From positions 1 to 22,720 of the IMG/VR virus record IMGVR_UViG_3300050821_001016: a stretch of 22,720 bases of DNA; one strand, written 5' to 3'. Of the stretch, positions 2,488-22,439 are shown in pieces; the stretch's first letter is position 1, and each line of letters begins with the position of its first letter. A model generated the notes under the pieces. It searched no databases and was not told the DNA's origin. It was given only the letters and a program-made list of their open reading frames with translations. This stretch comes from a virus. The position numbers and the translations under genes are program-made.

Positions 2488-3602
2488 GGTCCAGCTCCAA
2501 GCGTTCGCATGGTGCATACGGCTGTAGAAGCTGTTGGCGTGTAGGTGATCCAAATCCCTCCCTGTGTACCAGCCACTTCGGCCGTCGTTCCGTAATAGCC
2601 CCCGCCACCTGCGCCGTATGTGCCGCCCGTACAGCCCGCCGCGTGGCTTGGCGCTCCACCGCCGCCGCCGCCGCCAGCACCTCCTGCCCCACCGCCCCAC
2701 TCGGTTCCGTTGTTTCCGTTCCCGCAGTTCGTGGACGAGGTAGCTCCCGCTCCACCCGTACCGCCAGAGGTACTGTCGCCTTGGCCGCCCGCGCCGCCTG
2801 TCGTGGCCGCTCCAGCCCCACCGACGGTCCCGACACCATTAGGGCCGCCTGCGCCACCGCCACCACCGCCGCCAACCGCGGAGCCGCCTGCGCCCCCCGA
2901 TCCGCCAGATTGCTTGACGCAACTTGTGCCGGTGCAAAAACTGTTACCGAGCAGGCCGCCCGCACCGGCCGTACCGCCCGCGGCCCCTGGCGACCCACCG
3001 GCGGCCCCTGCGGAGGAACCCGAGAGAGCGGTTCCGTTAAAGAACGTGTTCGCGGTGGTCGCCGTCCCGGAGGTGTAGGCGGGACCGACGCTATAGGGAT
3101 ACCAGCCGCTTGCGACGAGCGAATAGCCCGACGTCGGGTTTGACTTGACGTAGGCCCCACCGCCGCCACCACCGCCGCCTGTCGTGCTGTTGGTTCCAAG
3201 GTGGCCAAATCCACCAGCCGCAACCGCCTCGATCGTGCTCCCGGTGTTCTGCCAGTTCGACGGAATCTGGTAGCCGTAGAAGAGGTTTATCGTACAGGCC
3301 GACGCGCAGGGCGTGTCAGCCGGGCCGTTGATGGTGCAGCTATAGGTCGAGACGCTTCCGGAGCATCCGGTGAGGTAGTTCCACGGCGCCGACGCAGCTA
3401 AACCCGTCCCGGTTACGACGGTCCCATTCGGTGGGGTTCCGACAAAAGTTCCGGCGGTCGTAGAAAGCGTGGTCGATGTGGTTGTGCCGGTGACACTTGT
3501 GGCCGGAAAACCGGTGTTTGCGGTGATGGTCAGAACTGTCGCTTCAGCCTGCCAGCAGGCAAGCGAAAGAACAGCGCAAAGTGTGGCTAGAAAACGATTC
3601 AT
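2481..3602 (-). CDS. Exported glycine-rich adhesin-like protein with signal peptide (2 of 3)
   Basis: This 373-residue protein has a signal peptide MNRFLATLCAVLSLACWQAEA, with cleavage likely after A21. A Thr/Cys-rich beta domain follows to about 120. Then comes a long glycine-rich region at 129-336 with runs of up to eight Gly (TTGGGGGGGGAYVK). A C-terminal strand (QGGIWITYTP) ends the region, the common close of glycine-rich phage fibre tips. In T4 gp38-type adhesins, stacked Gly-rich polyproline II helices display receptor-binding loops; the resemblance is one of style. ATG 3602 overlaps the upstream TGA by one base; GTG 3605 is possible. Cysteines lie in pairs (SFCTGTSC). It may be a receptor-binding or secreted surface protein. 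Confidence 0.72.
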   Translation of the reverse strand: MNRFLATLCAVLSLACWQAEATVLTITANTGFPATSVTGTTTSTTLSTTAGTFVGTPPNGTVVTGTGLAASAPWNYLTGCSGSVSTYSCTINGPADTPCASACTINLFYGYQIPSNWQNTGSTIEAVAAGGFGHLGTNSTTGGGGGGGGAYVKSNPTSGYSLVASGWYPYSVGPAYTSGTATTANTFFNGTALSGSSAGAAGGSPGAAGGTAGAGGLLGNSFCTGTSCVKQSGGSGGAGGSAVGGGGGGGAGGPNGVGTVGGAGAATTGGAGGQGDSTSGGTGGAGATSSTNCGNGNNGTEWGGGAGGAGGGGGGGAPSHAAGCTGGTYGAGGGGYYGTTAEVAGTQGGIWITYTPTASTAVCTMRTLGAGPC

Positions 3603-4597
3603 CACTTGTAGTGAATGGTTATGACATACGTGGAGGCGGTTGGATTGGTCGTGTCGTTATCGGCGATCCCGCCAGTGATGCACATGGTTATCGCGGTGGA
3701 AAAGGCCGCGCCGACCACGCCGCCGCCAATCTGAATGTTGGAGCCACCGGTTACGATATACCGAGACTGCGGAGTAGGCGTCCCGCATGTCACCGATCCT
3801 TGGGCGACGTTGTAGAACTTCACATAGATTGGATTGGAGAGCGGAGTCGCCGAGTTGCTTCCGACTTCGATATCCATCAGCGAGCCAGGGCTCGTATCCA
3901 CGGCGACGGACGTGGTGTTCGCTGGTACGATCTCGGAATAGGTGGATAGGCCGCCCGTGGTGTTCGGGAGAATCCCCACCGACCCGATGTCGATTCCGAG
4001 GCTGGCTTGGGCCGCCAAGGGGGCTTGCGCGGCGGCGAGGATACCCGCGGAGTTCTGGTCCAGCGTGTTCAGATAGACACTGGAGAACGTGAACGCCGGA
4101 AAGTTCATCTCGTGGATGCGGAGGCCCCCATCGGACGCATCGACAGTGAGGGCGTCCAGGGTAGTGGATGTCGCACTGTCCTGGCCGCCGCCGAGAGTGG
4201 CGCTGGTAGGGGTGCCGAGAGCGCCGACCACACCAGTACTTGCGCCCCCGGTTACGGGTAGGGGATTGGCGACGGAAACGCCAACGAGATTCCCGCCGGA
4301 ATTGAAGCCCTCGTAGCTAGCGGAAGTAGGAACCGCCGATCCGGTAAGCCCCGCCGCCGCGTTACCGCCGCCACCCCCGCTCGCATTCGTCTGGAGTTGA
4401 CATGTCGACGTCTCGCCTACCATGCAGCGGAGGTGGGTAGACGAGTCGTAACCAAGCGGTTCGACACCCATCGCGCTAGTAGGAAGATTCCCGCCCGGCT
4501 GGAAATACTGCCCCGCAGTGGGGAGCGTAGTCTGCGCACACGCCAAGGAGCTGAGCGACATCAGCAAGGCGAGCGGTGCGTAAGCTAAACGGCGCAT
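3602..4597 (-). CDS. Exported beta-rich protein with signal peptide (1 of 3)
   Basis: This 331-residue protein begins with a basic start, a hydrophobic run and a cleavage site: MRRLAYAPLALLMSLSSLACA, with cleavage predicted after A21 before QTT. The mature part is rich in Gly, Thr, Ser and Ala, has a Gly run at about 73-78, few charged residues and paired cysteines (LRCMVGETSTC, VTCGTP, TMCITGG) that suit disulfides outside the cytoplasm. ATG 4597 is chosen because GGAG stands 9 nt before it; a TTG at 4612 is in frame but upstream of that site. C20 is not in a good lipobox, so a plain signal peptidase I site is preferred. Function is unknown. Its place after the tailspike suggests a host-surface or virion-surface role. 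Confidence 0.75.
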   Translation of the reverse strand: MRRLAYAPLALLMSLSSLACAQTTLPTAGQYFQPGGNLPTSAMGVEPLGYDSSTHLRCMVGETSTCQLQTNASGGGGGNAAAGLTGSAVPTSASYEGFNSGGNLVGVSVANPLPVTGGASTGVVGALGTPTSATLGGGQDSATSTTLDALTVDASDGGLRIHEMNFPAFTFSSVYLNTLDQNSAGILAAAQAPLAAQASLGIDIGSVGILPNTTGGLSTYSEIVPANTTSVAVDTSPGSLMDIEVGSNSATPLSNPIYVKFYNVAQGSVTCGTPTPQSRYIVTGGSNIQIGGGVVGAAFSTAITMCITGGIADNDTTNPTASTYVITIHYK

Positions 4598-4644: not shown

Positions 4645-6606
4645 CTAGGTCAGGTCTCCCGAGGCGACGCAGTTGGTGTTGAAGCTCGTGGTTCCGCCCC
4701 ATGGAGACCCGCCGAGGAGGATCTTGTTCGCAGCGCCACCGAAGGCGACCGGTTGCATGACGGTGCAGTTAACTTCGATGTGGGTGGTCCCTGCGCCATC
4801 CACGCTCACACCGCAGGTGAAGGAACCTGCGCCACCATTGATGATGGGGCGAATGTAGCCTCGCGAGCAAGTGACAAGAGTCACCGCCGGTCCAAGGGTA
4901 TGGGGAGCGGTCTTCTTGACCACGTTGTCTTCCATCGAAAACGACGTCACGCTCGTCAGCTTCGCCATCGACTGAAGATCGAGCATCGTATTGCCGAACG
5001 ATTGGAAGTTGTTGCACGTGTTGAGTAGGAATCCTGTTCCGACAACGGAGGTGAAGAACTGCATTCCGCTGACCTTCAGGAGGCCGAGAACGCCCGTAGC
5101 CTGGACACAGGAACCGGCCGCCTGAGTGACGTTGATGTAGCCACCTTCGACGGTAATGTTGGTGTATGCCCCCATGTTGTTGCAGGCGATACCGGCTATG
5201 GAGCACGAGTCGAAGTGGGCATCGATGATCGTGCAATCTTCAGACGAGTACGTCGATGACCCGCCGTTAAGGTCGGCGCCATATTGGCAAAAGCCAGACT
5301 CCGGCTGGGTGATGAACAGGTCGACGCAGCCCTGATACGTGGTGATACACGCGGAGTACGTCAGGGTGAGCGCCTGTGCCGGGAAGGTTCGACACCTATT
5401 CAGGTAGATGGAGGCATTGCCGCCATTGTATCCCGCGAATGGCGCCGAATAATCGAGGTAGAATCCGCTGAAATTGTCGTTGCTGGTATGGACGCCAGGG
5501 ACCGATCGGATTGTCGAACACCGATCCCAATAGCTCTCGACACAACCATAGATATAGAAGCCGATCGAGTGTTCTAACGCCATCACGTCGCTGCACCGCA
5601 GGAGGCTGCACCACATGAATTGAATCGCTGTTGGCGCAGGAAGGACACCGCTGGATGGATTGTTCGGTGGAACGGAACGATAGACCGTGAAATTGTCCAG
5701 TTCGATATTGCTGATGATATTGACCGGTTCCAAAGTCTGATTGGTCCCGCAGATGATGCCGGGGGTCGTCGCACTCGTGAGGACAATCTGCGACGATGTG
5801 GCCGCTGCGTTCTGTTCCCACGTCACCCCGCGAAGGGTCTTGCCGTTCATCGTTATGACGATAGGGTTTGCGGTGTAGTAGTTTGCCTGTGCCAGTTGTG
5901 TTACCGGACAAGCTACGATGCAGGCGTTGATTGCAGCGGAACAGTCGAATGCAGGGGTGTTAGGTTGCGCCCCCCACCACTCGGGATACCCCTCGATGTT
6001 GTAGGATGAGAATGTAACCGTTCCGAGACCGGCAGTTGCGTTGTTGAAGATACTCCCCCTGAACCCGACAAATAACCCTCCGGTAAACGCCAGTGTCATA
6101 CCGGTGGCGATGTAAAAGTTGGCGGGTGGCGCGAGGATAAACGTGTGCGCCCCAAGCGTGGCGTTGGATAGGATTTGGAATTGTCCGCCCGCCAGAATGG
6201 CAGGGGTCGTCAGAGCCGCGAGGATTGGACCGTCGTCGCCACCTGACGGATAGATGATCGGCAGGCCGGTGAGCAGGTCTCCAGCGGAAGAAATCGGCGC
6301 CACGATGTTGTCGACGGTCCAGATCGGGTGCGTGGGTGGGTCGGTGTCGGTCGAAGGGGCGAAGACAAACTTGTACGCCACACCCGGCGGTAGCCAGATG
6401 CCGGTGGACGCTCCTGCTACGTTTTCGGGCTCTCCTCGGGAGTTGAGAATGATCGGGTTCGTAAAGGCCGTTGCACCGGTTGAATCCGTGTAGACGTTTG
6501 CTTTCGTGGTCGTTCCGGCTTGATACGTGAAAAGCTGCGCTCCGACCGCAACTTGGCCGTTGATAAAGAAATCTTGGATTACAACCGGGGATAGATTCGT
6601 TGTCAT
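4645..6606 (-). CDS. Tailspike with P22-type head-binding domain and beta-helix
   Basis: This 653-residue protein has an N-terminal anchor of the P22 tailspike type: SPVVIQDFFINGQVAVGAQLFTYQAGTTTKANVYTDSTG at 6-44, then NPIILNSRGEP, then GIWLPPGVAYKFVF, then IWTVDNI at 95-101. The anchor binds the tail hub. A linker follows, then PEWWGAQPN at 208-216, the usual entry to a pectate-lyase-like right-handed beta-helix. The helix covers roughly 217-590, with many Asn, Gly and Ser rungs. A beta-rich C-terminal part ends the protein. Such spikes trimerise, bind host surface polysaccharide and often cleave or deacylate it; catalytic residues cannot be named here. Cysteine is unusually frequent. The start overlaps the PurD-like stop as ATGA. 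Confidence 0.85.
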   Translation of the reverse strand: MTTNLSPVVIQDFFINGQVAVGAQLFTYQAGTTTKANVYTDSTGATAFTNPIILNSRGEPENVAGASTGIWLPPGVAYKFVFAPSTDTDPPTHPIWTVDNIVAPISSAGDLLTGLPIIYPSGGDDGPILAALTTPAILAGGQFQILSNATLGAHTFILAPPANFYIATGMTLAFTGGLFVGFRGSIFNNATAGLGTVTFSSYNIEGYPEWWGAQPNTPAFDCSAAINACIVACPVTQLAQANYYTANPIVITMNGKTLRGVTWEQNAAATSSQIVLTSATTPGIICGTNQTLEPVNIISNIELDNFTVYRSVPPNNPSSGVLPAPTAIQFMWCSLLRCSDVMALEHSIGFYIYGCVESYWDRCSTIRSVPGVHTSNDNFSGFYLDYSAPFAGYNGGNASIYLNRCRTFPAQALTLTYSACITTYQGCVDLFITQPESGFCQYGADLNGGSSTYSSEDCTIIDAHFDSCSIAGIACNNMGAYTNITVEGGYINVTQAAGSCVQATGVLGLLKVSGMQFFTSVVGTGFLLNTCNNFQSFGNTMLDLQSMAKLTSVTSFSMEDNVVKKTAPHTLGPAVTLVTCSRGYIRPIINGGAGSFTCGVSVDGAGTTHIEVNCTVMQPVAFGGAANKILLGGSPWGGTTSFNTNCVASGDLT

Positions 6607-7922
6607 TCGTACTCAAGCCCCTTGCAGTACCCGGCAGCCTGCAACTTGGGCAGGCATTTCTCAACCTTTTCGCCGATGTCGGTACGATAGATCATGTCTG
6701 AAAAGCGTATGCCGTCGATAGCACCGTAGGCCGATTTACGAGCTTTCTCCACCGTACTGCCTAATCCGGTCACAATCGCGACCATCTCCCCGGCAGTCTG
6801 ATACTGCGCGCCGTCCTTCACCCTGTCGCCATCCATGACCGGCCCGCGACCGATCTGACACATGGCGGGATGCACCGAATCCCACACCTCGTCGAGCCCG
6901 GTGATCGGGATGCCTTCAACGCATTCAGGTTTGCCATCGAACTTGGGCCAAGGCGGTTGGGCGAGCACGACACCGATGGTGGGGCGATAATCCACCTTCA
7001 GGGTATCCTCGTCCTTCATCAGGTCCATCATCCACTGGACGGGATCGCCTTTGTGGGACGCGCACTGCAAATAGAAGCACGGCCACCCAAGGCGCATGGT
7101 CATCTCTAGCGGCCATGCCTTACCCTTAGTGTCCACAGCCACACCAATAGCTGTATCCCCACGGTGACCCAGCGCCGCTAATGCGGGGGCCATAGGCGCA
7201 AGCATGTCATCGAACAGCTTAGACTTTTCCATGTAACAGGTGAGCGTCCCCATCTCACCTGTGTTCGGCCCCTTCTCGCCGTTGCACAGCTTCTTGTGCT
7301 CAAAGCACTCCTGTGCCTTGTCGGGAAGAAATCCTTCAGGACCGAACCAACTCGACACACCAAAGTCGGCGATCAGGTCCACCTTTTCCTGCAACATGCA
7401 CTTGGTCGTCTTTGCGCCCCTCGCACGTTGCCGCTGAATCCACCCAACCATGTCGGCGGGCGTCGAGGATACGTACGTTAAACTTTTATCGTCTTCTGAG
7501 CCCAACGGCTTGAACACGTACGGATCTTGTGCCTTACGCGCGAACTTCTCCGCCGCCTCTAGGCTGTCGAACGTCTCATAATGCGGCAGATCGATCCCCG
7601 CCGCTTTCATAAGTTCCATCCCCTTTCCCCGGTCAATTTCGAGGGCGGCGGATTGGACAGTGGGGCCGAAAATCTGGAATCCGATTTCTCGCCAGCGATC
7701 AAGTACTCTCGTAAATTTGGCGTTCCCGGTAGGCACAACGAGGCCGTCTTTCTTGCACCACGTCATAGCTGTGGCTAGGTCGTTCGTTCGCTTTACGCCA
7801 ACGAATCCTTTGCCGATGGGGTGGTCCGTCTGCTGGAAAAGCATTACCTCATGGTCATGCTCGACACATCGGACGGCGAAGTCGAGGCCGGTGAGTTCGG
7901 TGTCGATTATGGCGACCCTCAT
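6603..7922 (-). CDS. PurD-like ATP-grasp protein (phosphoribosylamine-glycine ligase homologue)
   Basis: At 439 residues this protein is the normal size for PurD (GARS), which joins glycine to phosphoribosylamine using ATP in purine synthesis. Clear family marks are FGPTVQSAALEIDRGKGMELMKAAGI at 85-110, FEHKKLCNGEKGPNTGEMG at 207-225, VTGLGSTVEKARKSAYGAI at 384-402 and YRTDIG at 412-417. Two deviations matter. The N-terminal glycine-rich loop is changed to IIDTELTGLD. The metal-binding signature, usually N-x-R-F-G-D-P-E, reads TMRLGWPCF at 275-283, keeping E273 but losing the Asn and the DPE. It may therefore use another substrate or be weakly active. It overlaps both neighbours as ATGA, an ejection protein before and the tailspike after, so it is made with the virion. 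Confidence 0.85.
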   Translation of the reverse strand: MRVAIIDTELTGLDFAVRCVEHDHEVMLFQQTDHPIGKGFVGVKRTNDLATAMTWCKKDGLVVPTGNAKFTRVLDRWREIGFQIFGPTVQSAALEIDRGKGMELMKAAGIDLPHYETFDSLEAAEKFARKAQDPYVFKPLGSEDDKSLTYVSSTPADMVGWIQRQRARGAKTTKCMLQEKVDLIADFGVSSWFGPEGFLPDKAQECFEHKKLCNGEKGPNTGEMGTLTCYMEKSKLFDDMLAPMAPALAALGHRGDTAIGVAVDTKGKAWPLEMTMRLGWPCFYLQCASHKGDPVQWMMDLMKDEDTLKVDYRPTIGVVLAQPPWPKFDGKPECVEGIPITGLDEVWDSVHPAMCQIGRGPVMDGDRVKDGAQYQTAGEMVAIVTGLGSTVEKARKSAYGAIDGIRFSDMIYRTDIGEKVEKCLPKLQAAGYCKGLEYE

Positions 7923-14599: not shown

Positions 14600-16287
14600 C
14601 CCTGATAGGCGCCGATCATCGCCACCGCGAATTGGTCGCTGGTCGAGATGCGCCAGATACGGTCTTCACCCGTCCCGCGCCCCGTCGACCCAAGCCGGTT
14701 CCACTTCACGCGCCAGCCGTACTGGCCCGTCTTGCCGGCCGATCCGAAGCGCTCCGGGCTCCACGAGTAGCCCCCGTCATCGGACCAATCCATCATGATC
14801 TGCGGGTTGGCGGTCGGGGTCACGTTCACACCGGAATCGATGTCGATCCACAGATACTTGAACCGAACCGGATCTTCGACGGGTTTGCCTAGCGCCCGCC
14901 ATGACCGTGAACGACGGATCGCCTGACCGTTGTCGGTATAGGTATCCATGTCCAGGGCATAGATATTACCGTTCTGGTAATCCCCGACAATCGTCCTTCC
15001 ATTGAAGAACGTCGCGCAGTTGGAGCGGTGTCGGCTATAAGCTCCATTCGAGAAATACAGCCACTCGTGCCAGAACTTATCCTTGCTGGCGACATTGCAG
15101 ACCCACGTTGCATTGGCCGATGGGAAAGACAGAACGTAGAAGACGTTCTTTTCCATGCGGAAGCTGTATCCGATGGCGTCCGAAATTGTCGGATATTGCG
15201 CCATGGCGTAGGCAATGGCGTCGGTGGAGATTTCGATGGCCTCGTAGCCGGTCATCTGGAAGACGGCGTTACGACCCTCTCGGGTCTGTCCAAGCCAGAT
15301 CAGGCTCTCACTCGCCTGAGACACGGAATACGGCGCGACACAGCCCACTTCCATGTGGACCCCCTGTTCCTCGCCAAACACGAAACCGGACGGATTACCC
15401 TGGTTGATCCACACCTCGGCGGTGTCTCTCTGCAACATGACGAGCTGGCGATGCAGGAACCCGATGGACATCAGGTCAGACGGGCGGGCCTGGACGTTGG
15501 AGAAGGTCAGCGGGTCCCATATCGAGAGATCGAAGAGATTCGACTGCCAGACATTGAGGGAATTACCCTCTACGCAGACGCCAAAGCCATCCTGATAATT
15601 GGCGATGGTGGGATTGTTGAACGAAAGGACTAGCGGGACGACGCCGATAAACGGCCCCAAGACCGGATTGATCAGGGAGAAGCCACCGCCGCCGCCATCG
15701 GATGATGCCTGACTGAGGATCGGGGTCAGGTCCGTGAATGCGCCGGGTGTGGTGATCGAGAACGAGGTGACGGTCCCACCAAGCCCGATCCCTGTTACGG
15801 TGACTTGCGCTGTCGCGGGGGACGTACCGTTCTCATCCACCAATGTGATCGTATCATTGAGATTAAAATTCTCTCCGCCGTTGCCAATTGTTGCGCTTTG
15901 AAGGGGATAGCCGCCGGGCACGAGATAGCCCGCCGACCCGTCGAAAAAGGCGACTTGCAGTCCGCCACTCTCGCCATTGTCGATCCAGCTTATCGGGCCG
16001 AATGCCGTGCCGATCGAGCCCAGCTTGGTGACGTTGAAGCTCACATCTACGCTATAAACGAACGCCCCTGCGACTACGTACATGATAGATCCGAAGCGAT
16101 AGACGCCACGGATGGGATAGCTGGGAAGGGTGACCTTCAGATCGAGGCCGGGCGTGCCATAAAACGCCCCAGCATCCTTCGTGCCCGTGGTTTCGGACAC
16201 GTTGAGGAACATATTGATGAGAAGTTGGTCGGCAAGATCCTGTGATCTCGCGCGGTATGCCTGTCCGAGGAAGGTTGTTGACCTCAC
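14596..16287 (-). CDS. Packaged DNA stabilization / tail hub protein, P22 gp10-like
   Basis: This 563-residue protein resembles P22 gp10, a ring in the tail hub that follows gp4 and keeps packaged DNA inside. The family opening is seen (FLGQAYRARSQDLADQLLINMFLN). Repeated beta-rich segments follow, including WQSNLFDLSIWDPLTFSNVQARPSDLMSIGFLHRQL, then TAEVWINQG and GRNAVFQMTGYEAIEIST, ending in a Trp-rich C-terminus (DWSDDGGYSWSPERFG). Start GTG 16287 is chosen because it overlaps the endonuclease stop as GTGA; a TTG 12 nt upstream is an alternative, and neither has a good ribosome site. Residues about 130-212 look like an inserted module (GNGGENFNLNDTITLV onward), rich in Gly and Thr. P22 gp10 is 472 residues, so the extra length fits an insertion. 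Confidence 0.85.
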   Translation of the reverse strand: MRSTTFLGQAYRARSQDLADQLLINMFLNVSETTGTKDAGAFYGTPGLDLKVTLPSYPIRGVYRFGSIMYVVAGAFVYSVDVSFNVTKLGSIGTAFGPISWIDNGESGGLQVAFFDGSAGYLVPGGYPLQSATIGNGGENFNLNDTITLVDENGTSPATAQVTVTGIGLGGTVTSFSITTPGAFTDLTPILSQASSDGGGGGFSLINPVLGPFIGVVPLVLSFNNPTIANYQDGFGVCVEGNSLNVWQSNLFDLSIWDPLTFSNVQARPSDLMSIGFLHRQLVMLQRDTAEVWINQGNPSGFVFGEEQGVHMEVGCVAPYSVSQASESLIWLGQTREGRNAVFQMTGYEAIEISTDAIAYAMAQYPTISDAIGYSFRMEKNVFYVLSFPSANATWVCNVASKDKFWHEWLYFSNGAYSRHRSNCATFFNGRTIVGDYQNGNIYALDMDTYTDNGQAIRRSRSWRALGKPVEDPVRFKYLWIDIDSGVNVTPTANPQIMMDWSDDGGYSWSPERFGSAGKTGQYGWRVKWNRLGSTGRGTGEDRIWRISTSDQFAVAMIGAYQG

Positions 16288-16826
16288 GCCGGCGCCCAAT
16301 TGTCAGGCCGGCGACGATTTTGGGCTTGGGTCCGTTTGTCGGCCCAACGGCAATTGTCTGGCGAATACCCTTTGTCGTTATCCTTGCGGTCTATGGTCCA
16401 TCCGGGGTGCGGAATTGGACCCATGTCAGCGAGAAAATCGACGTAGTTTGCCCAGCGCTCACAAACAGTGATCCCACGCTCGAAATACCATTCCCTGTCT
16501 TTCGTTCGATTTCCCGGACTGCACCTCCGGTGCATTGATCGAAAAGCGCGAAATTCCGCAGACCAATCTCTCGACGGGTGGGGTGCTCTCCCCTTGCTTT
16601 TGACCTTGGCCATGAGCGCCGAGGTAAGACAGCCACACGATTTAGATATCCCGGTTCGAAGGGATGGGCCGGATACATCACGAACGGTTCCGCAATCGCA
16701 TTGGCACAGCCACATAGCGCGACGTTGCCCCTGACCTCTCTGCCTACTCTCGCCACGAAATTCGCTGAAGCTTAATACCGTCCAGGCGCCGAACTTGCCG
16801 CCGGTCATGTCGATCATATTTCCCAT
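16284..16826 (-). CDS. HNH-type homing endonuclease, zinc-ribbon type (second, unrelated to the first)
   Basis: This 180-residue protein has an opening of the type MTGGKFGAWTVL and a zinc-binding segment (WLCQCDCG at 39-46, KSCGC at 63-67). A middle region reads FRAFRSMHRRC, then FERGITVCERW, and a C-terminal core reads TIDRKDNDKGYSPDNCRWA (144-162) followed by QAQNRR. The core matches the layout of HNH domains in which Asp takes the place of the first His. Such genes are mobile in phages and often lie beside conserved structural genes. ATG 16826 is chosen because GGAGGTGA stands 2-5 nt upstream; the longer frame to 16880 has no such site and would run across the hairpin. The stop overlaps the gp10-like start as GTGA. 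Its activity and DNA target are unknown. Confidence 0.75.
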   Translation of the reverse strand: MGNMIDMTGGKFGAWTVLSFSEFRGESRQRGQGQRRAMWLCQCDCGTVRDVSGPSLRTGISKSCGCLTSALMAKVKSKGRAPHPSRDWSAEFRAFRSMHRRCSPGNRTKDREWYFERGITVCERWANYVDFLADMGPIPHPGWTIDRKDNDKGYSPDNCRWADKRTQAQNRRRPDNWAPA

Positions 16827-16850
16827 GGTCACCTCCGTTGAGGCGCCCAT

Positions 16851-16877
16851 CCTACTATGATCGGGTACAATAGTAAG
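16851..16877 (-). promoter_or_regulatory. Hairpin with overlapping weak promoter before second endonuclease
   Basis: In the 66-nt gap after the gp4-like gene, the minus-strand arms CTTACTAT and ATAGTAGG pair over 8 positions with one G-U, around an 11-nt loop. A weak promoter-like pair overlaps it: TTGTGC (16877-16882), 17 nt, then CATAGT (16854-16859). RNA started there would lack the hairpin. The Shine-Dalgarno site is outside the stem, so any control would differ from that of the first endonuclease. The promoter boxes are poor matches. Confidence 0.4.
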
Positions 16878-19236: not shown

Positions 19237-20298
19237 TTACGGCCCGGCGATCAAACCAAGCGCCACGAGCGCCGCGTGGTCCGCGACACCGCCGCCAACC
19301 TGGACGTTGTAGGCGTTGGACGAACCCGCAGCAGCCGAGGCGGCCGGGAACGAGGCGATGGTGTAGACCTCGGACGGCGGGGTGATCGCAGCCGCCGTGT
19401 TGTTCACGTAGTTCAGCGCCAGAGTGTTGGCCGCCGAGACGCGCGCACCGCCGAGACCAAGCCCAGCAGTGACCGTGGGCTTGTTGACCACGACCTGAGA
19501 GTTCACCGGCAGACCAGTCACGGTGAAGGTCTGCTCCGCCGTGGTGTTGGCCGCGACCGAGACGGGGGTCAGGGTCACTTGCAGGGTCCGCATCACCGAA
19601 GCGATCGACAGGTCGGTGGCGGCGAAGAAGACGTAGCTCTCGCCGGCAGTCGGGGTGATCGTGGCGGCGGTGAAGTTGGCGAACGTGATGCCCACCACGC
19701 CGGCCGAAATCATCGTCGCGTCGACAATGCCAAGGCCCGTCTGAGCGGTCGGCTTGTTGACGATGACCGGCGCATTGGCCGCCAGACCGCCCACGTTGAA
19801 CGTCTGGAGCGACATGGTGTTCGGCGCAACCGCGGCCGGCGTCAGGGTGGCGGTGATGCACATGGCCGCCGGGATGACGTTGAACAGGTAGGTTTGCGCG
19901 GCGGTCGGGGTGACGGTCGCAGCGGTGTCGTTGGCATAGGTGATCGCAACCGAGTTGGTTGCCGACACCCGCGCGCCGACCACCGCGATACCCGCATCCA
20001 CGCCCGGCTTGGTCACCGCGACGATCGAACCGGTCGCCGCGCCTGTGACGGTGAACGCCTGCTCGTTGGTCGTGTTCGGCGCCACAGAGGCGGCGGTCAC
20101 GGTGACCGAGTATTCGGTGACAGTGCCGGCAATGCCGGTAACCGAACCTTGGCTGGCCGGCTGGGCGACAGGGGTGGCGCCGAAGAAGCCGATCGGACCA
20201 GCGTTGGGGCCGCCGGGACGAATGCCGGACGGATCATCAGCGCCGACCTGAGTGAAGGGGTCGTTGATCGGGTTTACGACAGCAGTGACGACGGGCAT
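19237..20298 (-). CDS. Repeat-containing head fibre or decoration-type structural protein
   Basis: This 353-residue protein is rich in Ala, Val and Thr and almost free of charge clusters. An N-terminal segment (GPIGFFGATPVAQP, 34-47) is of a kind shared by phage head fibre and decoration proteins. Three degenerate repeats of about 88 residues follow (about 62-142, 148-226 and 237-318), each reading roughly TLTP.SVAPNTT..QTFTVTG, then VNKP, then GLGIV.ARVSA, then ITY.N.TAA.ITPTA. They look like beta-sandwich modules. A C-terminal tail with a short helix (DHAALVALGLI) ends the protein. The start ATG 20298 has a strong GGAG 8 nt upstream. The position just after coat suits an exposed head protein. 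The exact role is inferred, and a tail location is not excluded. Confidence 0.75.
   Translation of the reverse strand: MPVVTAVVNPINDPFTQVGADDPSGIRPGGPNAGPIGFFGATPVAQPASQGSVTGIAGTVTEYSVTVTAASVAPNTTNEQAFTVTGAATGSIVAVTKPGVDAGIAVVGARVSATNSVAITYANDTAATVTPTAAQTYLFNVIPAAMCITATLTPAAVAPNTMSLQTFNVGGLAANAPVIVNKPTAQTGLGIVDATMISAGVVGITFANFTAATITPTAGESYVFFAATDLSIASVMRTLQVTLTPVSVAANTTAEQTFTVTGLPVNSQVVVNKPTVTAGLGLGGARVSAANTLALNYVNNTAAAITPPSEVYTIASFPAASAAAGSSNAYNVQVGGGVADHAALVALGLIAGP
19345..20115 (-). repeat. Three in-frame ~88-codon repeats
   Basis: The repeats are visible at protein level: PNTT..Q.F.V.G recurs at about residues 74, 159 and 250, TKP/NKP at about 97, 182 and 273, and ATVTPTA/ATITPTA/AAITPP at about 127, 212 and 303. 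Spacing is about 85-91 residues. They are diverged at nucleotide level, so they are old duplications rather than a recent expansion. Confidence 0.8.
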
Positions 20299-20637: not shown

Positions 20638-21175
20638 GGGGAGTGTCCCCTGCGATGTAGGCTAGGATACCCGGAAGGCCGATCGTATCGACAATGGCCT
20701 CGAACGAACCAAGTCTGGTGTTGCAGGCATGGCATAAAAGCCCTCGAACGCGTCCTGTCTTGTGACAGTGATCCACGTACCAGTGACGAGTCTGCCGCTT
20801 GCTCCCCGGATTGTCGCGGCCATTTTCCGCCACTCCGCATAGCTTGCAGCGGTCGCCTTGCGCAGTTCGCATCGCCTCGTAGTCCTCTTCGGAGAGGCCA
20901 TACGTCGATTTGAGATTGGATCGGCGAATAATCTTCACCATTTTTTCCGGATTGTTTTTCGCCCATACGATGGCTCGCGCGGCTGTCTTGGCTCTGATGC
21001 TCGGATTCGAATGGTACTGCCGCTTGGTTTCGGCGGCGCCGCACACTTTGCAGCAATACTTCACGTACACGCCCAAGCCGTCGCGACTTTTCTGAGTGTG
21101 AAATTCCGAAACCGGCTTCACCTCGTGGCATAGGCGACATTCCTTCATGCCGTTCCGCACAGACGACATCCGCAT
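20618..21175 (-). CDS. Endonuclease VII-type HNH homing endonuclease (free-standing)
   Basis: This 185-residue nuclease has an N-terminal zinc ribbon (MKECRLC at 10-16 paired with CCKVC at 41-45) and a C-terminal recombination endonuclease VII domain. The domain shows C110/C113 and C148/C151 as zinc ligands, and the catalytic stretch VDHCHKTGRVRGLLCHACN at 134-152 with D135, H136 and H138. Such proteins cut DNA, and as free-standing phage genes they usually act as homing endonucleases that spread themselves. The gene lies between coat and a small virion-type gene, not in a recombination module, which favours homing over T4 gp49-like junction resolution. ATG 21175 is chosen because GGAG precedes it by 5 nt; M10 (MKECRLC), where the recognisable ribbon starts, is an alternative. 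The 3' end overlaps the next gene by 20 nt. Its expression is probably controlled by the promoter and hairpin immediately upstream. Confidence 0.88.
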   Translation of the reverse strand: MRMSSVRNGMKECRLCHEVKPVSEFHTQKSRDGLGVYVKYCCKVCGAAETKRQYHSNPSIRAKTAARAIVWAKNNPEKMVKIIRRSNLKSTYGLSEEDYEAMRTAQGDRCKLCGVAENGRDNPGSKRQTRHWYVDHCHKTGRVRGLLCHACNTRLGSFEAIVDTIGLPGILAYIAGDTPHGSLLP

Positions 21176-21178
21176 TTG

Positions 21179-21204
21179 TTCTCCAGTCCGAATTGACTGG
21201 AGAA
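21179..21204 (-). promoter_or_regulatory. Hairpin sequestering the endonuclease ribosome site
   Basis: The arms TTCTCCAGTC and GACTGGAGAA form a perfect 10-bp stem around the 6-nt loop AATTCG. The 3' arm contains the only good Shine-Dalgarno sequence (GGAG, 5 nt before the ATG at 21175). RNA reading through from the coat gene would therefore hide the ribosome site. RNA starting at the promoter just upstream (about 21198) would lack most of the 5' arm and leave GGAG free. No U-run follows, so it is not a terminator. Confidence 0.7.
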
Positions 21205-21233
21205 TTTCTACGATGATTTGTCGTGAGTGTCAA
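21205..21233 (-). promoter_or_regulatory. Sigma70-type promoter for the endonuclease VII-like gene
   Basis: On the minus strand a perfect -35 box TTGACA (21228-21233) is followed after exactly 17 nt by TAGAAA (21205-21210), matching the -10 consensus at 4 of 6 positions. It sits in the 73-nt gap between the coat gene and the endonuclease. A start 7 nt after the -10 box would fall on an A at about 21198, inside the 5' arm of the downstream hairpin. This is a prediction from sequence only. Confidence 0.6.
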
Positions 21234-21248
21234 AGTTTCCATCTTCAA

Positions 21249-22439
21249 CTAATTCGTAAGTCTAACGCCAAGGTCATCATAGAATTGGGCGGACCCCCAG
21301 AGAACATCCGAGCGGCAGGGGAACAAATCCGAGTTGATATCGTATGCTCGAATGATCCTTAGAGAAATACCCTTCCACATTTCTCTAGCTCTAAAGTCTA
21401 CGCCCTCTGGAAGTTCCATCGGCACTGTCACCAGCCCAATCGCATCCCGCGTGAACCCGAAGTTGTTGAAGTAGCTCGTACCCTTGGTCGGCGTGGTCAC
21501 AGCCGACACCGACGCGAGGTTGGCGGGCGACACATCGGTGTTCTGATAGGCGCCGGTCAGGTTGATCGCGGGGAAGATCGGCAGGGTGGCATTGCCGCCG
21601 CTGTCCGAGTTCACCGGGGCGGTGATGAGGAAGTTCTTCAGCGAGCCGGTCGACGTGCGGTTCTGCGCGTTGACTTGGTGGACGCCCGCGAACGACACGA
21701 CGTCGCCCACGTTGAAGAGGTTGGTCACCGAAGCGGTCCAGCCGTTGGTGATGATGCTGGAGCCGGTCTGATTGGCGCCGTTGACGACACCCGCACCGGC
21801 GAAGTTGCCCCACAGGTGGGCCTGCGTGTTCTGATCCTCGTAGATCGAGAAGTTGGCGATGTTGGCGAGGAAGCCCTTCAGCGCGGGTTCGGCGACCGAC
21901 TTCACGTACAGGGTGATGAGCCCGCCCGCGAGCGACCAGTAGGCCGCCGGGTTGAGGATCAGGACGCGGCCCTCCTGCGGCGCGGAGAGTTCGTCGAGGC
22001 GCTGACCGACAGCGGCGAGCGAGGAGAAGGACGACGGCACGGTGCCGGCAGCGCCCACGAGGTTGGAGAAGCTGAAGATGTTCGACAGCACGCCGTAATC
22101 GATCGTGTTGGCGATCGCAGCCGCGCCGGGCTTGAGGTAGCGTTCACTGAACTCCTCGATGGTGAGGGTCAGGTCGGCGCTGGAGAATTGGAAGTCGACG
22201 TGGTTCTGATTGGAGATGGTCAGCGAAGTCGACGGCTCGCTGATGTTCTGAAGTTGCAGGCCGGGACCGGATGCGACGATGAAGCGGTTCGGCTTGCGGA
22301 CGGTAATCGAGTTACCGATCTTGACGAACTGGTTCTCGAACTGCCGATTGACCTTGCCGGCTGCGACAAGGTTGTTTTCCAGGATCACCAGGGTTTCCTT
22401 GGTGACCACGGACGGCTGGAGAAGGGCTTCGGTCGTCAT
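21249..22439 (-). CDS. Major capsid protein, P22 coat (gp5) family
   Basis: This 396-residue protein builds the icosahedral shell of the head. It resembles the P22 coat family (HK97 fold; P22 gp5 is 430 residues). Supporting features are the N-terminal ALLQPSVVTKETLVILENNL segment, the mid-protein VRKPNRF and QNHVDFQFSSADLTLTIEEF segments, and the C-terminal YDINSDLFPCRSDVLWG, which corresponds to the end region of the family. The start is ATG at 22439, with an AGGA ribosome site 9 nt upstream. It follows the scaffold-like gene, the standard P22 order. Residues ~225-320, rich in Gly, Ser, Thr and Asn, are where P22-type coats carry their insertion domain; that equivalence is inferred. The gene ends in TAG, followed by a 73-nt gap holding the promoter and hairpin of the next gene. 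Confidence 0.92.
   Translation of the reverse strand: MTTEALLQPSVVTKETLVILENNLVAAGKVNRQFENQFVKIGNSITVRKPNRFIVASGPGLQLQNISEPSTSLTISNQNHVDFQFSSADLTLTIEEFSERYLKPGAAAIANTIDYGVLSNIFSFSNLVGAAGTVPSSFSSLAAVGQRLDELSAPQEGRVLILNPAAYWSLAGGLITLYVKSVAEPALKGFLANIANFSIYEDQNTQAHLWGNFAGAGVVNGANQTGSSIITNGWTASVTNLFNVGDVVSFAGVHQVNAQNRTSTGSLKNFLITAPVNSDSGGNATLPIFPAINLTGAYQNTDVSPANLASVSAVTTPTKGTSYFNNFGFTRDAIGLVTVPMELPEGVDFRAREMWKGISLRIIRAYDINSDLFPCRSDVLWGSAQFYDDLGVRLTN

Follow-up and report, generated by a model that had tools for sequence, protein, structure and literature searches.

The coat-nuclease junction

The DNA analyzed here (the window) is a whole stretch of 22.7 kb from a P22-like phage record. The late genes examined are all located on the minus strand, in the order scaffold fragment, coat, nuclease and then more virion genes. 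No close DNA relatives of the window were found among named phages, and the search for related bacterial genome contigs gave just three matches, all distant and actinobacterial. The gene for the major coat protein is followed by a gene for an HNH nuclease of the Endonuclease VII type (Table 1). The profile of this nuclease matches the structure of T4 endonuclease VII (1e7d), the HNH (beta-beta-alpha-metal) domain is present, and the Cys pairs as well as the DHxH...CHxCN motif are conserved. Judging from these sequence features and from the presence or absence of its gene at the coat junction of relatives, the protein is probably a free-standing homing endonuclease. We assume that a read-through transcript originates at the coat gene and continues into the nuclease gene, its late transcription being taken over from P22 biology.

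Two other genes of the window deserve mention. A PurD-like ATP-grasp gene (6603-7922, minus strand) adjoins the tail genes; GARS_A and GARS_C score above the Pfam cut-offs, and the gene scores under the NCBIfam purD cut-off. The gene located two places downstream of the nuclease (19237-20298, minus strand) carries internal repeats that vary among relatives, as seen from overlapping tblastn pieces.

Table 1. Positions of the genes and regulatory features in the window
Feature	Position	Strand	Basis or remark
P22-like major coat protein gene, 396 aa	21249..22439	-	PF11651 E=3.4e-36; phrog_283 E=3.5e-69
3' tail of the coat gene	21249..21398	-	G+C 0.47 vs 0.63 in coat body
-35 TTGACA	21228..21233	-	Sequence
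-10 TAGAAA, spacer 17 nt	21205..21210	-	Best promoter placement within -90..-4
Predicted transcription start	21198	-	Predicted: 7th base after -10; folding difference saturates there
Hairpin 5' arm TTCTCCAGTC	21195..21204	-	Perfect 10-bp stem, 6-nt loop
Hairpin 3' arm GACTGGAGAA, includes ribosome site	21179..21188	-	Perfect 10-bp stem
GGAG ribosome-binding site	21181..21184	-	5 nt ahead of ATG at 21175
Endonuclease_7-type HNH nuclease gene, 185 aa	20618..21175	-	PF02945 E=1.1e-17
Second HNH gene, phrog_374 type, family unrelated to the first	16284..16826	-	Start re-assigned to 16826 behind GGAGGTGA
Hairpin over GGAGGTGA site, -10-like TAGGAT at 16854-16849	16827..16854	-	Second case of the layout

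The coat stop codon and the nuclease start codon are separated by 73 nt of AT-rich sequence, TTGAAGATGGAAACTTTGACACTCACGACAAATCATCGTAGAAATTCTCCAGTCAATTCGGACTGGAGAACAA-ATG, with 46% G+C. An earlier, sequence-only reading had placed in this spacer a TTGACA/TAGAAA promoter with 17-nt spacing and a perfect 10-bp hairpin holding GGAG in its 3' arm, 5 nt before the ATG, and the minus strand indeed contains all of these elements. The start that it had predicted at about 21198, within the 5' arm, coincides with the 7th base after the -10 element. In a weight-matrix scan the local promoter reached 12.0 bits and ranked first among all placements between -90 and -4, as judged with an E. coli matrix, which may not suit the host. 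The -10 hexamer lacks the conserved final T; because it ends in A instead, a fixed promoter scan had overlooked this promoter. The hairpin is the sole perfect stem of at least 10 bp with a 3-8-nt loop in the window, while 0.13 are expected from dinucleotide shuffles. An intrinsic terminator was considered for the stem and rejected, since it is followed by CAAATG with no T run and the terminator scan made no call. No Rfam family matched the window above its gathering threshold, and no tRNA was detected at the hairpin site.

The predicted folds of the two possible transcripts differ strongly. The 91-nt leader has a minimum free energy (MFE) of -32.6 kcal/mol (z = -4.8), and none of 200 shuffled sequences folded equally well. 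On read-through RNA, opening of the region -14 to +3 is predicted to cost 17-20 kcal/mol, compared to 4-5 kcal/mol on RNA starting at 21198; GGAG is entirely paired in the former, and each of its bases is 27-85% unpaired in the latter, which retains a stem of 4 bp. These calculations bear out the earlier proposal that read-through RNA would fold and mask the ribosome site, and that a local transcript would keep about 4 bp of stem and free it. The predicted effect in the window is sensitive to the start point within about 2-4 nt: with a start only 2 nt earlier (21200), a 6-bp stem is kept and 9.6 kcal/mol are needed to open the start region.

The sequence-only reading had treated this leader as a single case. 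Its description of the window instance was confirmed, but the case is not the only one: the layout is repeated at the second HNH gene, where the promoter is weaker (7.2 bits) and the folding difference amounts to 8.9 kcal/mol. When the 21 genes of the window were compared, the two HNH genes ranked first and second in folding difference (12.5 and 8.9 kcal/mol), the next value being 3.9.

Recurrence of the layout in related phages

Searches with the coat and nuclease sequences yielded about 350 loci, the relatives being metagenomic fragments. At the coat 3' junction, to which this count is confined, 85 distinct relatives were distinguished, comprising 12 distinct sequences with the nuclease family and 73 without it. 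Each leader was given two scores: (i) the best sigma70 matrix value for a start between -32 and -12, and (ii) how much more energy is needed to open the start region on read-through RNA than on RNA from the local promoter. A leader scored as a switch at 8.5 bits or more and 5 kcal/mol or more, thresholds that were chosen after most of the twelve cases had been seen. By these scores, the switch layout was found in 10 of the 12 coat-adjacent nuclease insertions and in none of the 64 next genes at nuclease-free sites (Fisher p=7e-11). Composition-matched shuffles of the spacers from the same 12 leaders scored as switches in 1.0% of cases. Two insertions discovered once the thresholds were fixed (L350 and L355) both scored as switches, and the leader of L091 lay narrowly below the thresholds. 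The L020-group insertions have no switch; their 21-nt spacer contains a ribosome site alone.

The promoter in the window is of the sigma70 type (-35, 17 nt, -10), as it is in nearly all relatives. The scoring window of -32 to -12 favours starts within such hairpins; nevertheless, the unrestricted scan (-90 to -4) agreed in 10 of 11 hairpin leaders, placing the best promoter start at -18 to -27, compared to 18% of control genes with a best start at -17 to -28. For L044, an alternative promoter at -67 scored slightly higher. The mean folding difference was 11 kcal/mol at the predicted start and about 2-4 kcal/mol when the start was placed 8-16 nt upstream; a shift of 8 nt already lowered it to 4 kcal/mol, while a downstream shift added little. 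The promoter thus lies about as far upstream as the removal of enough of the 5' arm allows. In L087 and L350 the -35 element falls within the last coat codons (TTG-AC of Leu-Thr). TTG is found there in 16 of the 73 gene-free sites as well, and this placement could be partly a coding coincidence.

The hairpins themselves share little. Loops vary from 4 to 43 nt, and both the arms and their sequences are different in each case, whereas the 3' side of the hairpin reaches the ribosome site or the start codon in every one. Clear spacer similarity was detected for L087 and L350 alone (z=7.9), where a G-U pair is swapped for G-C; G-U pairs also occur in the stems of L030, L044, L087 and the second HNH gene of the window. 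Since spacers are unrelated even between L052 and L171, whose nucleases are 61% identical, it is the layout that is kept and not the sequence. Without homology between the hairpins of the various insertions, classical covariation analysis is impossible, and the recurrence of the layout was tested in its place. Loss of stem pairing among relatives had been named beforehand as an outcome that would speak against a switch; what was found instead (10/12 insertions, 0/64 controls, 1% of shuffles) supports interpretation of the leader as a switch. The lack of sequence relationship between the hairpins is also consistent with the earlier suggestion of independent invention, which here would have taken place repeatedly.

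When all loci were considered, the switch layout was present in 13 of 104 Endonuclease VII-type genes, compared to 7 of 1014 others. Outside the coat loci the corresponding fractions were 7/95 and 5/510 (p=0.001); the layout is therefore most frequent at the coat site, yet it also occurs elsewhere. In cultured phages with Endonuclease VII-type genes, T7-like phages and cyanophages among them, no switch was found; several of these genes overlap the upstream gene. A different arrangement was observed at about position 675 of L154, where an inverted repeat with TATAAT in its loop shortly precedes the start codon of an Endonuclease VII-type gene; an RNA begun at that place would be almost leaderless.

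Gene presence and recoding of the coat tail

The Endonuclease VII-type gene is missing from the coat junction, the only site examined in this comparison, in 73 of the 85 distinct relatives, and some almost identical phages differ in whether they carry the gene (L020 type) or lack it (L014 type). The coat sequence next to the insertions is altered. Between L087 and L171, 22 differences, mostly silent, fall within the final 99 nt of the coat sequence, compared to 0-9 per 99 nt elsewhere; between L021 and L024, 20 of 46 differences lie in the coat 3' end. In pairs of gene-free phages, too, differences are somewhat more numerous here (8-16), so part of the recoding reflects general variability. 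The drop in G+C content along the coat tail is larger beside the nuclease (-0.117) than where it is lacking (-0.051; p=1.4e-5). A recoded or co-converted flank was seen in paired relatives, and the window itself displays just the G+C drop; from its composition, the coat 3' tail of the window is probably a co-conversion tract or a recoded target. Recoding and a G+C drop would be the expected trace of double-strand-break homing, through co-conversion or recoding of the target (PMC2988022).

Several individual loci add to the picture of this region. L252 and L253 (contigs of L087 and L171) have nearly identical coat genes, different nucleases and unrelated leaders at one junction. In L056 an Endonuclease VII-type gene (3440-3952) is located at the other end of the coat gene, between the latter and the scaffold gene, and has no obvious switch. 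L319, which lies on the same contig as L070, carries from position 3704 a 12-bp hairpin behind the coat gene, with TATGAT in its 5' arm. This hairpin is followed by a broken stretch similar to another coat tail (NNDVFP...YYPEL) and by a helix-turn-helix-like piece, as in HNH nucleases. By its sequence, the stretch looks like a decayed cassette placed before the displaced old coat end.

A probable transcript-dependent switch and its precedents

Taken together, these results make it likely that the leader is the expression-control switch of a mobile Endonuclease VII-type HNH gene, silent on late coat read-through RNA and on from the local promoter. The leader would consist of a sigma70-type promoter whose start point lies in the 5' arm of an RNA hairpin, with the ribosome site in the 3' arm. 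The abundant late read-through RNA from the coat gene would carry both arms and fold, so that no nuclease is produced, while the short RNA from the local promoter, devoid of most of the 5' arm, would leave the ribosome site open and be translated. The nuclease would probably be expressed early or at a low steady level and be shut off under massive, coat-level late transcription. We regard this as the best explanation of the sequence, the predicted folds, the phasing, the recurrence and the presence or absence of the gene; where transcription starts, which RNA is translated and when, and that the enzyme is active in homing are what we infer from them. Early or low expression and late silence are proposed because the local promoter is of the host type and no T7-type polymerase was found in 18 relatives (metagenomic fragments), the search having given positive controls in T7-like phages.

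A chance origin, i.e. a fortuitous inverted repeat combined with promoter-like hexamers, is very improbable. The AT-rich spacer (46% G+C) does raise promoter scores, but the window contains this one perfect 10-bp stem where 0.13 would be expected, and recurrence in relatives contrasts with 1% of composition-matched shuffles. It is unlikely that the hairpin keeps nuclease translation low on all transcripts, or stabilizes or processes the mRNA, with the promoter match being incidental. Low expression fits a nuclease, and a stem of such strength (MFE of -32.6 kcal/mol for the 91-nt leader) would cut initiation on any transcript. However, promoter quality and hairpin phasing coincide in 10/12 insertions compared to 0/64 controls and 1% of shuffles, and the predicted start falls where the folding difference levels off.

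The inverted repeat might also act as a DNA operator, a palindrome bound by the nuclease or a phage repressor to repress the local promoter, with RNA pairing as a side effect. In almost every leader the palindrome lies across the start point of the promoter, and autorepression of I-TevI at an operator over its late promoter is known (PMC2988022). We nevertheless consider this explanation quite unlikely, as arms, loops (4-43 nt) and sequences differ case by case, the G-U pairs of several stems suit RNA rather than a DNA operator, and in all of them the 3' side extends to the ribosome site or the start codon, for which a DNA operator would have no use. Unrelated spacers and G-U pairs argue for selection on RNA structure and against a common protein-binding site.

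A switch of this kind, acting on the transcript, is already known. The genes of the intron-encoded I-TevI, I-TevII and I-TevIII and of the free-standing segB of phage T4, and mobE of phage Aeh1, all of them selfish nucleases, have a start-site hairpin on read-through RNA and, immediately before it, a promoter whose own RNA begins too late to include the whole stem (PMC2988022). The window has in common with them, in sequence and predicted folds, the start-site hairpin and a predicted promoter start that would remove part of the stem. The I-TevI-like layout recognized by the sequence-only reading stands as far as hairpin and promoter phasing are concerned, and does not extend to the T4 late promoter (TATAAATA, no -35). 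The local promoter is instead sigma70-like, with a -35 element at 17 nt, and hence the leader would work like the T4 switch but not in the T4 late-promoter form. There is no intron at the window gene, and no sequence relation to the genes of this group was found. The endonuclease-specific promoters of T4 are middle or late, never early (PMC2988022). In the T4-type systems it is early or middle read-through RNA that is silenced, whereas in the window the read-through is presumably late; the timing is thus probably inverted.

RNA sequestration is likewise known from other T4 genes. In genes e and soc, which do not encode nucleases, the long early RNA forms an inhibitory structure and T4 late promoters within it yield open RNA (PMC3014915). 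Gene 49, which encodes endonuclease VII, is listed with those in which an RNA structure sequesters the start region (PMC3014915). It shares with the window gene the nuclease domain family PF02945 and the sequestered start region; it differs in being a core resolvase, whereas the window gene is a presence/absence insertion with another promoter class. The earlier description of the circuit as serving an unrelated endonuclease therefore undersold the precedent, which lies in the same domain family; the HNH gene mobE had been listed as well (PMC3014915, PMC2988022).

A further likeness, and a strong one, was noted in the cultured Rhizobium phage RHph_N3_2, whose HNH gene EVB98_006 lies two places behind the gene annotated as major capsid. 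It has a TATAAT promoter with a hairpin (TCTCCAATG/CATTGGAGA) over the start site and a folding difference of 14 kcal/mol. Its product is a relative of the other HNH protein of the window and not of the Endonuclease VII type, and the record notes no such regulation.

No report of the switch outside T4-type phages was recognized in full-text searches of an open-access library, judged mostly by titles and the openings of abstracts. What is new here is the host-type promoter, the setting in a P22-like late operon, the recurrent rebuilding of the layout at a single junction and its tie to a recoded coat tail; silencing of late read-through, as the inverse of T4 timing, is probably new as well. The recurrence in unrelated sequence suggests that such enzymes are held silent on late transcripts. 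A broader proposal, to which we give an even chance, is that the P22-like coat junction is a hot spot for mobile cassettes that combine an HNH nuclease, silent late and expressed early in reverse of T4, with a recoded coat tail and with a host-type promoter lying inside a start-site hairpin, and that this circuit has been rebuilt many times from unrelated sequence.

If this is true, masking of the start site against read-through would be a general solution for selfish nucleases residing in operons, and the explanations specific to T4 (late timing, intron splicing) would become separable for testing. The layout would also provide a signature by which such cassettes can be recognized in sequences, as well as a compact expression part insensitive to upstream transcription.
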